Assembly (NCBI GenBank): GCA_938049385.1 | Contig: CALIBQ010000041.1 | Span: 1-57,669, forward strand | From: an uncultured Anaerolineae bacterium | GTDB taxonomy: Bacteria > Chloroflexota > Anaerolineae > JACIWP01 | Reading direction: 5' to 3' | Length of the DNA: 57,669 nt | Shown here: positions 46,747 to 50,190 of the stretch, one piece after another | Position numbering within the stretch: the stretch's first letter is position 1 | Layout of the letters: every line of letters starts with the position of its first letter | The notes under the pieces: model-generated | Databases searched by the model: none | The model's input: only the letters and a program-made list of their open reading frames with translations | Told to the model about the DNA's origin: nothing | Program-made: the position numbers and the translations under genes

Positions 46747-49700
46747 CTATCCTGTGACAGGTTTGGTTTCTTTCTCCAGGGCCGGCAGGATGTACTCTTC
46801 GACGAACGCCTTGACGTTGTCCGGGTCCACATGCATGACCTTATGCCGGCCAATGGTGACCGAGGGCCCGTTGGCGCAGTTGTTGGCGCAGAAGCGCGCC
46901 CGCACACGGAAGCGGTCGGTAAGGCTGCGCTGGCGCAGTTCTTCCGCCAGCTCTTCCATGATGCGCCAAGAGCCTTTCAAGTAACAGTTGGTGCTGACGC
47001 AGACGCCCAGGTCAATGACGGGCTGGGTTTCCAGCAGTTCCTCGATGGGCTGGTCGACGCGCATGGAGCGCCGGCCGTAGGTGGTGTGCAGGGCACGATG
47101 CGAGACCTCGCCCAGCGGCTCGCCCAACCATTGGCTGTAGATGGCCTGGACGGCCGGGTTGTCCTGGCTCTTCTTGACCGAGGCGGCGGCGTCCATACGG
47201 TAGAGCACCTCCAGGCGCTCCTCGCGATCGGTGGAAAGCTGAGGCGCCGGGTTGCCTGAACCGTTGATGCACCCACCCGGACAGGCCATCACCTCGATAA
47301 AGTGATAGGGCGCGTCGCCGGCGCGAATGCGGTCAATGAGCTGTTGCGCGTTCTGCAGGCCGCTGACCACCGCCAGGCGCACGGTGATACCGTCCAACTC
47401 AATGGTCGCTTCCTTGATGCCCTTGAGGCCGCGCACCTGGGTGTACTCCACATTGTCGAGGCGTTTGCCGGTGATGCGCTCCGCGGCCAGGCGCAGGGCC
47501 GCCTCAGCGACGCCGCCGCTGGCGCCGAAGATGATGCCGGCGCCGCTGACGTTGCCGAAGGGCAGGTCCAGCTCCTGCGGCTTCAGCTCCAGCGGGTCAA
47601 TGCCCTTTTCGCGGAACATGCGGATGACCTCGTTGGTAGTGATGACCGCGTCGACATCGGGTACGCCGTCATGGCAGAACTCCGGCCGCCGGCTCTCGTA
47701 CTTCTTGGCGTTGCACGGCATGATGGACACGAAGAAGAGCCGGTCGGGCTTCACGCCGAGCTGTTTGGCGAAGTACTGCTTCACCACCGAGCCGAACATC
47801 TGTTGCGGCGACTTGCAGGACGACAGAAGCGGCAGTAGATCGGGTGCCATCTTCTCGCAGTAGTTAATCCAGGCCGGACAGCAGGAGGTGAACTGCGGCA
47901 AGCCCTCGCCTTTCGCCAGCCGGCTCAGCAGTTCGGTGCCTTCCTCCATGATGGTGAGGTCGGCGGCCCAGCAGGTATCGAAGACGTAGGCGAAGCCCAT
48001 CTGCTTGAGGCCGGCGCACAGCCGCCCCATAGCTTCCTCGCCGGTCAGTCCGTAGTACTGGGCGAAAGCAGCGCGCACCGCCGGCGCAATCTGCGCCGCG
48101 ACGATAAGCGATGTGTTATTCAGTGCACGATACACGTTCGGTAGGGTGGGCTTCAGGGTCAGCGCACCCGTCGGGCAGACGGTCACGCAGTGTCCGCAGG
48201 AGACACAGCTCGTCTTATCCAACGGCCGCTGGTCAACCGGACCGATGGTCAGCGTGCCGTTGACCTCGTAATAAGTCAGCGCGGCCGAACCTTCCATCTC
48301 CCGACAGGCCTTCAGGCACAGGCCGCAGAGGATGCACTTGCCCGGATCGCGCACCAGGATAGGGTGATTCTCGTCCACCGGCACACGGCGCATGGGACGC
48401 GCTTCGGCATCAAAGGTCACCTGGTACTGGGTGGCGTACTGGCGCACCTGACAGTCATAGCGCTCAGTGCACCCACACTGGAGACAGCGCGCGGCCTCGC
48501 GCATGGCCGTCGCCACATCCCAGGTCTCACTGACCTCCATGAAGTTGACCTTGCGCTCCTCCGCCGGCACCATTGGGATGGGGTTGCGCGGGCTGGGGCG
48601 CACATTGCGGAACTCCTCCTTGGGTACCTCGTCCCAGCGCCCCTTGGAGCAGGTGTATGTAGGCATCTGCGGGGTGACCCGGCCGGTGCGCAGGTACTCG
48701 TCGATAGCGGCGGCGGCGCGGTGGCCGGCGCCGATAGCAGTTACGGCGATATCCGGCCCGGTCTGACAATCGCCGCCGGCGAAGACGCCCGGGATAGATG
48801 TTTGCAGGGTCAGCGGGTCTACCTGGATCGTGCCGCGCGGTGTGCGGGCCAGCTCCGCCGGCAGACCATCATCCTCGACTGTATGTCCGATGGCCGCCAG
48901 GATCGTACTGCAGGGCAGGACGAACTCGGAGCCGGGGATGGGAACCGGCCGGCGGCGCCCCGATGCATCCAGGTCGCCCAGCTCCATGCGCACGCAGTGG
49001 AGCTCCAGCCCCGCCGGTCCTTGTCGGATGGCGGTGGGAGCGGCCAGGAACTCCAACTGCACCCCTTCTTCGATGGCCTCTTCCACCTCGGTATCCAGCG
49101 CCGGCATCTCGTCGCGGGTGCGGCGGTATAGGATGGTCACGGAGCGACAGCCCAGGCGGATGGCGGTGCGGGCGGCGTCGATGGCCGTATTGCCGCCGCC
49201 GATAACCACCACGCGGTCGCCCAGGCGCGGCTGACGCCGCAGGGTCACCATGGTCAGCAGGTCAATGCCGGCCATCACCCCGGGCAGGTCCTCGCCCTCG
49301 ATGTTCAGACGGGACGATCCCTGTGCGCCAATGGCCAGGAAGACGGCATCGAAGCCGCTGGCCTTGAGCGAGTCAAGGGTGAAATCGCGGCCAAGCTTCT
49401 TGTGATACTGGATTTTGACGCCCAGGTCGAGGATGGATTCGATCTCGGCGTTCAGCACCTCGTCCGGCAGGCGGTAGCGGGGCACGCCCCAGCGGAGCAT
49501 TCCGCCGGCGGCGGAACGCATCTCGAAGATAGTGATGTCATGGCCCATGCGGCGCAGGAAGTAGGCCGCGCTGAGGCCGGCCGGGCCGCTTCCGATCACC
49601 GCCACTCGCTTGCCGGTATCTGGCGCGCAGGCCGGCTTATACGGCAGGAGCTGATAGCTGTCCCAATCGGCGACGAAGCGCTTGACCGCGTTGATGTTCA

Positions 49701-50190
49701 CCGCGCCGTCCACGGCGTTGCGCCGGCATTCGGTCTCGCATGGATGCGGACAGATGCGGCCGCAGATGGAAGGCAGGGGATTGTTTTCCTTGATGACGGC
49801 CAGCGCCTCGGTGAAGTTGCCGGCGGCCACGTGGTAGAGATAGCGCTGGATATCCACGTTGGCGGGACAGCGCTGGACGCAGGGCGCCGCACAGTCGCCG
49901 TAGTGGTTGCGCAGGAGGGACTGCAGATAGATTTTGCGGAAGCTCTCCAGGGCCGGCGATTCCGTGCGAATCTTCATGCCCGGCGCAACTTTGGTGGATG
50001 TCGCCGAGACGAAGCGCACGCTGTCGCCATCTATCAGCTCGACAGTGGACAGCTCCGCGCCAGAAGGGGGACTGAGCCGCGGGTCATATCCCAATGCCGG
50101 GATATGAATCCCGTTTTGCCGGGCGGCTTCGATAATGGTAATACCGTCCGGCACGGTGCACTTTTTATCGTTGATGGTAATTTTGATCAT
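46747..50190 (-). CDS. [FeFe]-hydrogenase fused to a GltD-like flavoprotein
   Basis: This 1,147-residue protein joins several redox modules. Residues 1-80 are a ferredoxin-like domain with no ligand cysteines. Residues 95-510 are GltD-like: cysteines at 100, 104, 108, 143, 147, 151 and 155, VIGSGPAGLSAAYFLRRMG for FAD, and VVVIGGGNTAIDAARTA for NAD(P). Two 4Fe-4S sites follow (C619-C629, C662-C672). The H-cluster domain shows all three motifs: TSCCPAW (768), MPCNAKKYE (824) and EVMACPGGC (966). The end is a NuoE-like 2Fe-2S site (C1064, C1069, C1101, C1105). It probably links NAD(P)H and H2. The ATG at 50190 follows GAGGG. Maturases are not in the window. Confidence 0.9.
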   Translation of the reverse strand: MIKITINDKKCTVPDGITIIEAARQNGIHIPALGYDPRLSPPSGAELSTVELIDGDSVRFVSATSTKVAPGMKIRTESPALESFRKIYLQSLLRNHYGDCAAPCVQRCPANVDIQRYLYHVAAGNFTEALAVIKENNPLPSICGRICPHPCETECRRNAVDGAVNINAVKRFVADWDSYQLLPYKPACAPDTGKRVAVIGSGPAGLSAAYFLRRMGHDITIFEMRSAAGGMLRWGVPRYRLPDEVLNAEIESILDLGVKIQYHKKLGRDFTLDSLKASGFDAVFLAIGAQGSSRLNIEGEDLPGVMAGIDLLTMVTLRRQPRLGDRVVVIGGGNTAIDAARTAIRLGCRSVTILYRRTRDEMPALDTEVEEAIEEGVQLEFLAAPTAIRQGPAGLELHCVRMELGDLDASGRRRPVPIPGSEFVLPCSTILAAIGHTVEDDGLPAELARTPRGTIQVDPLTLQTSIPGVFAGGDCQTGPDIAVTAIGAGHRAAAAIDEYLRTGRVTPQMPTYTCSKGRWDEVPKEEFRNVRPSPRNPIPMVPAEERKVNFMEVSETWDVATAMREAARCLQCGCTERYDCQVRQYATQYQVTFDAEARPMRRVPVDENHPILVRDPGKCILCGLCLKACREMEGSAALTYYEVNGTLTIGPVDQRPLDKTSCVSCGHCVTVCPTGALTLKPTLPNVYRALNNTSLIVAAQIAPAVRAAFAQYYGLTGEEAMGRLCAGLKQMGFAYVFDTCWAADLTIMEEGTELLSRLAKGEGLPQFTSCCPAWINYCEKMAPDLLPLLSSCKSPQQMFGSVVKQYFAKQLGVKPDRLFFVSIMPCNAKKYESRRPEFCHDGVPDVDAVITTNEVIRMFREKGIDPLELKPQELDLPFGNVSGAGIIFGASGGVAEAALRLAAERITGKRLDNVEYTQVRGLKGIKEATIELDGITVRLAVVSGLQNAQQLIDRIRAGDAPYHFIEVMACPGGCINGSGNPAPQLSTDREERLEVLYRMDAAASVKKSQDNPAVQAIYSQWLGEPLGEVSHRALHTTYGRRSMRVDQPIEELLETQPVIDLGVCVSTNCYLKGSWRIMEELAEELRQRSLTDRFRVRARFCANNCANGPSVTIGRHKVMHVDPDNVKAFVEEYILPALEKETKPVTG

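Follow-up and report, generated by a model that had tools for sequence, protein, structure and literature searches.

The StnC subunit of StnABC passes electrons from NADPH through FAD and the clusters C7, C6, C5, C4 (a [2Fe-2S] cluster) and C3 to the bifurcating StnAB, and StnC alone, with its GltD site, passes on electrons from NADPH with no bifurcation (PMC10482914). In the putative glutamate-synthase-linked hydrogenases of HydDB group A2, a GltD-type partner is present without NuoF (PMC5037454); for example, the GltD-like and HydA genes are adjacent in Collinsella aerofaciens. GltD and group-A HydA also occur together at loci of Clostridia and others, where GltD is fused to NuoF (HydB) and not to HydA. 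In bifurcating HydABC, the HydA subunit (T. maritima 7p5h_A; T. kivui 8a6t_A) combines a Fer4 pair with an H-cluster domain.

Here, we describe a gene in a window of 57,669 nucleotides, contig C41 of an uncultured Anaerolineae bacterium, whose product shares parts with all of these systems. Over residues 1-680 it is like StnC (8oh5_C) and the NfnA of NfnABC (9bov_A of Caldicellulosiruptor saccharolyticus and 9n5u_A of Thermococcus sibiricus), with which it has in common the Fer2 fold, the GltD module with FAD and two [4Fe-4S] clusters, the site at C569-580 and the Fer4 pair; the match to 9bov_A (E 7e-192) keeps the Fer2-GltD-Fer4 order over ~680 residues. However, an H-cluster domain and a NuoE-like tail stand where the characterised StnC has an FdhF-like domain, the four cysteines of the Fer2 fold have been lost, and the NuoE/NuoF partner genes are absent at the locus. 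The Fer4 pair and the H-cluster domain are shared with the HydA of bifurcating HydABC, and the C-terminal NuoE-like domain with that of T. maritima (the best PDB match of the tail is 7p5h_A, 572-625), whereas the inserted GltD, the missing N-terminal [2Fe-2S] cluster and the lack of a HydB at the locus set the chain apart from HydABC. Group A2 has separate genes, while GltD is an internal part of the HydA chain here and is a member of the Stn/Nfn-ABC clade. The A2 criterion is a GltD without NuoF in the protein just downstream; in the window, GltD is in the same chain, no NuoF is near, and the downstream gene encodes an HpcH/HpaI aldolase.

The initial annotation regarded the NuoE-like tail as the unusual part of the chain. 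However, T. maritima HydA and the Chloroflexota chain L005 carry such a tail, and the odd part is the StnC/NfnA-type NADPH front, residues 1-680. The domain arrangement of the fused chain is new, and the chain most likely functions in the manner of a single-chain NADPH hydrogenase; whether it is active in the host depends on its maturation. A hydrogen-making core follows straight on from a Stn/Nfn-type NADPH front, and one relay cluster for bifurcation has been removed; the fusion could be regarded as a natural experiment that separates the cofactors for bifurcation from those for plain NADPH-hydrogen exchange.

Domains and cofactor sites of the chain

The gene is an intact open reading frame with an ATG start and GAGG 5' of it (Table 1). 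It stands alone between the genes of a PMT_2 membrane protein and the aldolase, and its GC and GC3 are similar to those of the neighbour genes. The Pfam domains along the chain are Fer2_4 (residues 1-78), Fer4_20 (100-177), Pyr_redox_2 (195-489), Fer4_7 (618-676), Fe_hyd_lg_C (697-977, E 3.6e-93), Fe_hyd_SSU (989-1041) and 2Fe-2S_thioredx (1061-1133), and the curated NCBIfam cut-off of TIGR02512 is passed (478.8 vs. 405.95 bits). The single-chain fusion of GltD and [FeFe]-hydrogenase proposed initially is borne out by the open reading frame and these domains. The N-terminal Fer2 fold without cysteines had been overlooked.

Table 1. Features of the fused gene in the window (L033, L034 and L035 are described in the text)
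Feature	Position	Strand	Basis or remark
Whole gene, fused GltD / [FeFe]-hydrogenase / NuoE-like chain, 1,147 aa	46747..50190	-	Same chain in L033, L034, L035
Residues 1-95, Fer2 (NuoG N-terminal-like) fold, four [2Fe-2S] Cys ligands lost	49906..50190	-	Pfam Fer2_4, E 7e-10; alignment
Residues 96-560, GltD/NfnB-like FAD and NADP(H) module	48511..49905	-	Pfam, NCBIfam; matches 9bov_A, 8oh5_C, 5jca_L
Residues 569-580, CLQCGCTERYDC, predicted all-Cys [4Fe-4S] site	48451..48486	-	In the place of the HydA His/Cys3 (FS4C) cluster
Residues 619-672, ferredoxin-like 2x[4Fe-4S]	48175..48336	-	Pfam Fer4_7; cysteine pattern
Residues 697-1041, H-cluster domain and fused small-subunit segment	47068..48102	-	Pfam, motifs; fold match to CbA5H, CpI
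Residues 1061-1133, NuoE/TRX-like [2Fe-2S] domain, C1064/1069/1101/1105	46792..47010	-	Pfam 2Fe-2S_thioredx

The GltD module shows the Rossmann motifs GSGPAG and GGGNTA as well as YRRTR, and it is inserted exactly inside the HydA His/Cys3 cluster motif, as in StnC. Five [4Fe-4S] clusters are predicted outside the H-cluster from the cysteine count, in place of the two reported initially: two at the N-terminus of GltD (C100/104/108 and C143/147/151/155), one at C569/572/574/580 and two in Fer4. By the same count, the only intact [2Fe-2S] site is that of the C-terminal tail; the four ligand cysteines of the Fer2 fold are replaced by G34, A45, S48 and T64. The AlphaFold model reproduces the domains (mean pLDDT 81.9, low at 34-47) and matches CbA5H and CpI in the H-domain (Z 53-56) and, in its front part, NfnABC/StnC. 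Its pTM of 0.54 gives the mutual arrangement of the domains low confidence, and therefore the model was set aside for cluster distances.

As had been read initially, all three H-cluster motifs are intact (TSCCPAW, IMPCNAKKYE and EVMACPGGCINGSGNP), with C771, C826, C970 and C974 as the cysteine ligands. The proton path of CpI (C299, E279, E282, S319 and R286) corresponds to C770, E750, E753, S790 and R757 here, all five being conserved. The motifs are identical in the Anaerolineae and Syntrophaceae fusions despite ~36% overall divergence. The variant GSGNP in place of GGGQP in L3, also noticed before, is specific to the fusion clade: among ~90 chains scanned, it was found in the window, L033, L034 and L035 only. 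In the H-domain tree, the fusions form a long branch (0.91) beside the HydA chains of the Chloroflexota genome G089. The chain is assigned to the group-A [FeFe]-hydrogenases by sequence only, and not as a proven active enzyme, since HydE, HydF and HydG were not found in the host genome.

Reality and origin of the fusion

The same 1,147-aa chain, with GAGG likewise kept ahead of the start, is present in another Anaerolineae MAG, RSWS7 (L033, 96% identity), and chains of 1,150 and 1,160 aa with ~64% identity were found in L034 and L035, two MAGs of Syntrophaceae type, the former being filed under Deltaproteobacteria. Against the RSWS7 chain, dN/dS amounts to 0.045 overall, 0.049 in GltD, 0.044 in the H-domain and 0.107 in the tail. 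With low dN/dS in every domain, the fused chain is real and under purifying selection. An assembly or frame artefact, in favour of which nothing was found, is thus practically out of the question: it would have to recur as an uninterrupted chain of 1,147-1,160 aa in three further MAGs from two phyla, and to show a dN/dS of 0.045 across the domain joins. The assembly join, which the initial annotation named as a reason for caution, was rejected on the same open reading frame in L033, L034 and L035, whose domain order agrees.

Matches were found with exact peptide patterns, and the best 80 were kept together with the window. Among these best 80 of the genome collection and the window itself, GltD and the H-cluster domain lie on one chain in only four proteins, and at ~30 other loci among the matches listed, GltD is part of a NuoF chain and HydA is encoded separately next to it; with a list made in this way, the rarity of the fusion is an impression and not a count. 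In a tblastn search of plasmids, the single row with >80% query coverage was a split gene arrangement and not a fusion.

In the Syntrophaceae, the fused gene belongs to a hydrogenase island that also includes a HydS-like sensor, a SpoIIE phosphatase, HydABC and HydF; in G303, HydF is located ~14 kb from the fused gene within the same island. In addition, on contig C22 of the host (L127:6631-9647), a gene for a HydS-like sensory [FeFe] protein (TSSCP and IGPC motifs) precedes one for a SpoIIE phosphatase; this pair is also found behind the Syntrophaceae copies of the fused gene.

The GltD tree groups the fusion clade with a Stn-like chain from contig C61 of the host as its sister (support 100/97), and the NuoF-GltD hydrogenase subunits constitute a clade separate from the fusions. 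The C61 locus (L126:5484-9842) consists of NuoE (164 aa), NuoF (591 aa) and a Fer2-GltD-Fer4 chain (692 aa), which has no FdhF domain, is the nearest relative of the front of the fusion and is 50% identical to residues 2-699 of the fused chain. The C61 chain, adjoining NuoE/NuoF, keeps all four Fer2 cysteines, whereas the hydrogenase chain of the same genome lost them; all four are replaced in four of four fusions and retained in C61, G138 and L005. At least one of the G089 HydA chains, L005, bears the NuoE-like tail as well. By the two trees and the L005 tail, the front half is assigned to the Stn/NfnABC family and the back half to a HydA, and the donor HydA probably already bore the NuoE-like tail.

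The in-frame TGA at C61 was considered as the selenocysteine codon of a formate dehydrogenase, and this was rejected. The match to the fused chain stops just past the TGA (residue 699), and the gene that follows (by eye, folate-synthase-like) starts 83 bases past it. Consequently, the TGA is read as the ordinary stop of the 692-aa chain. Another Fer2-GltD-Fer4 chain, of ~1,190 aa with intact Fer2 cysteines and a C-terminus that is molybdopterin-oxidoreductase-like by eye, was observed in G138 (L004, contig C29), a genome of ~0.9 Mb that also carries a group-A HydA.

Putative electron route

Our best explanation, to which we give somewhat better than even chances, is that the chain is a cytoplasmic single-chain non-bifurcating H2:NADP+ oxidoreductase, a Stn/Nfn-ABC front fused to a group-A HydA with a NuoE-like tail. 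Electrons would run reversibly from NADPH to the FAD of GltD, the two GltD [4Fe-4S] clusters, the C569-C580 [4Fe-4S] cluster, the two Fer4 [4Fe-4S] clusters and the H-cluster, and the branch that dead-ends in StnC would here terminate in the H-cluster. The hand-over from FS4C to FS4B would be direct, as presumed by analogy with CpI. Of the working models, an exchange between NADPH and H2 within one chain is the simplest. The loss of the N-terminal [2Fe-2S] relay, which in StnC leads towards the bifurcating NuoF-type subunit, would sever the chain from bifurcation, and the C-terminal [2Fe-2S] domain may be a second port, for ferredoxin or another partner. We infer the route, its direction, the activity and the NADP(H) preference, NADP over NAD being suggested by motif similarity.

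Several points count against this explanation. The StnC path passes C5-C4-C3, and if FS4C lies far from FS4B in the fusion, the loss of C4 would break the NADPH-H2 wire. The long branch of the H-domain and GSGNP for GGGQP also weigh against it as sequence features, as do the lack of HydE, HydF and HydG in the host and RSWS7 and the low confidence of the domain arrangement in the model.

Electron bifurcation of the HydABC type within one polypeptide, which the initial annotation had offered, is unlikely because neither the chain nor the locus has a NuoF, the ligands of the [2Fe-2S] relay are lost, and the GltD site of StnC is non-bifurcating. A search of the host genome with the profile of the NuoF-type FMN domain, PF01512, found none in the fused chain or on contig C41, and matches on contigs C40, C56 and C61 only. 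The chain could instead bifurcate electrons as an NADPH-linked hydrogenase in trans with the NuoE/NuoF of the Stn-like C61 locus or with a different NuoF; the same genome does have NuoE-NuoF beside a close relative of the front half, and in HydABC, a NuoF-type subunit is the partner of HydA (PMC9304861). However, we consider this improbable: the [2Fe-2S] relay ligands are absent from all four fusions, the locus of the fused gene is without NuoF, and the NuoF of C61 has a partner chain of its own.

Maturases and hydrogen in the host

HydE, HydF and HydG are the maturases that [FeFe]-hydrogenases ordinarily require for assembly of the active site. In HMM searches, none of the three was found over the cut-off in the host genome G000 (98% complete) or in RSWS7 (G301; same contig matches as G304, 92% complete), where the answers were generic GTPases and weak radical-SAM matches; it should be noted that a very divergent replacement would escape such searches. 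The hydEFG genes had been proposed as a check on the enzyme, called probably active at first, and their absence argues against activity. In both Syntrophaceae with the fused chain, HydE, HydF and HydG are all present, and there the fusion is expected to be an active hydrogenase. In the Anaerolineae host, it would be active only if the di-iron subcluster comes from genes that are unrecognised or unassembled.

Among 301 sampled Chloroflexota genomes, ten contain a group-A [FeFe]-hydrogenase over the cut-off (G000, G007, G020, G048, G049, G057, G089, G136, G138 and G176). HydG over the cut-off was found in none of the 301, and HydE or HydF in none of the ten, four of which are single-contig genomes. 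The H-cluster motifs are intact in the examined members of the ten, and their hydrogenases are located at several separate places in the H-domain tree. We found no paper reporting [FeFe]-hydrogenases without maturases in Chloroflexota or Dehalococcoides, the subscription literature being outside the search. For Rhodospirillum rubrum, the [FeFe]-hydrogenase has been called probably inactive or differently used because the maturases are absent, and hydrogenases without maturases have also been noted for some anaerobic eukaryotes (PMC4967309).

The candidate explanations for the host are alternative maturation, missed genes or a domain without the di-iron site. It is rather unlikely that HydEFG are present in the organism with ordinary maturation and were missed through a binning or coverage gap. 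The host and RSWS7 genomes are MAGs of 85 and ~320 contigs, hydEFG can form one cluster and be lost together, and the Syntrophaceae have all three genes; however, two separate MAGs of the genus are without all three, and so are all ten Chloroflexota genomes with a group-A HydA, including the four on a single contig. A second alternative, of similarly low probability, is that the H-domain of the host lacks the di-iron subcluster and holds at most the [4Fe-4S] part, the chain being an NADPH-dependent electron-transfer enzyme and no hydrogenase. The absence of HydEFG from both Anaerolineae genomes, one of them 98% complete, and the same conclusion drawn for R. rubrum (PMC4967309) are in line with it, whereas all the checked residues of the di-iron site, the Cys, Lys and Met of the proton relay among them, are kept, and purifying selection on the H-domain is as strong as on the rest. 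With the same reserve, it may be suggested that Chloroflexota, including the host genus, build working H-clusters without HydEFG, by another maturation route or by cofactor uptake, having acquired group-A hydrogenases several times and the known maturases never, among the genomes sampled. With the maturases missing, there are two possibilities: either a further maturation pathway exists, or the catalytic motifs of the Chloroflexota proteins are complete and yet the proteins are not hydrogenases.

Contig C40 of the host carries a [NiFe]-HydABCSL-like cluster (L202, G000:C40:11000-24000) with a HydB fused to GltD (1,036 aa), a HydA-like protein (569 aa), small and large subunits, a maturation protease and a HypA-like gene, which were named by eye except for the PF01512 match. 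With this locus, the host probably has a means of handling hydrogen that does not depend on the [FeFe] enzyme.
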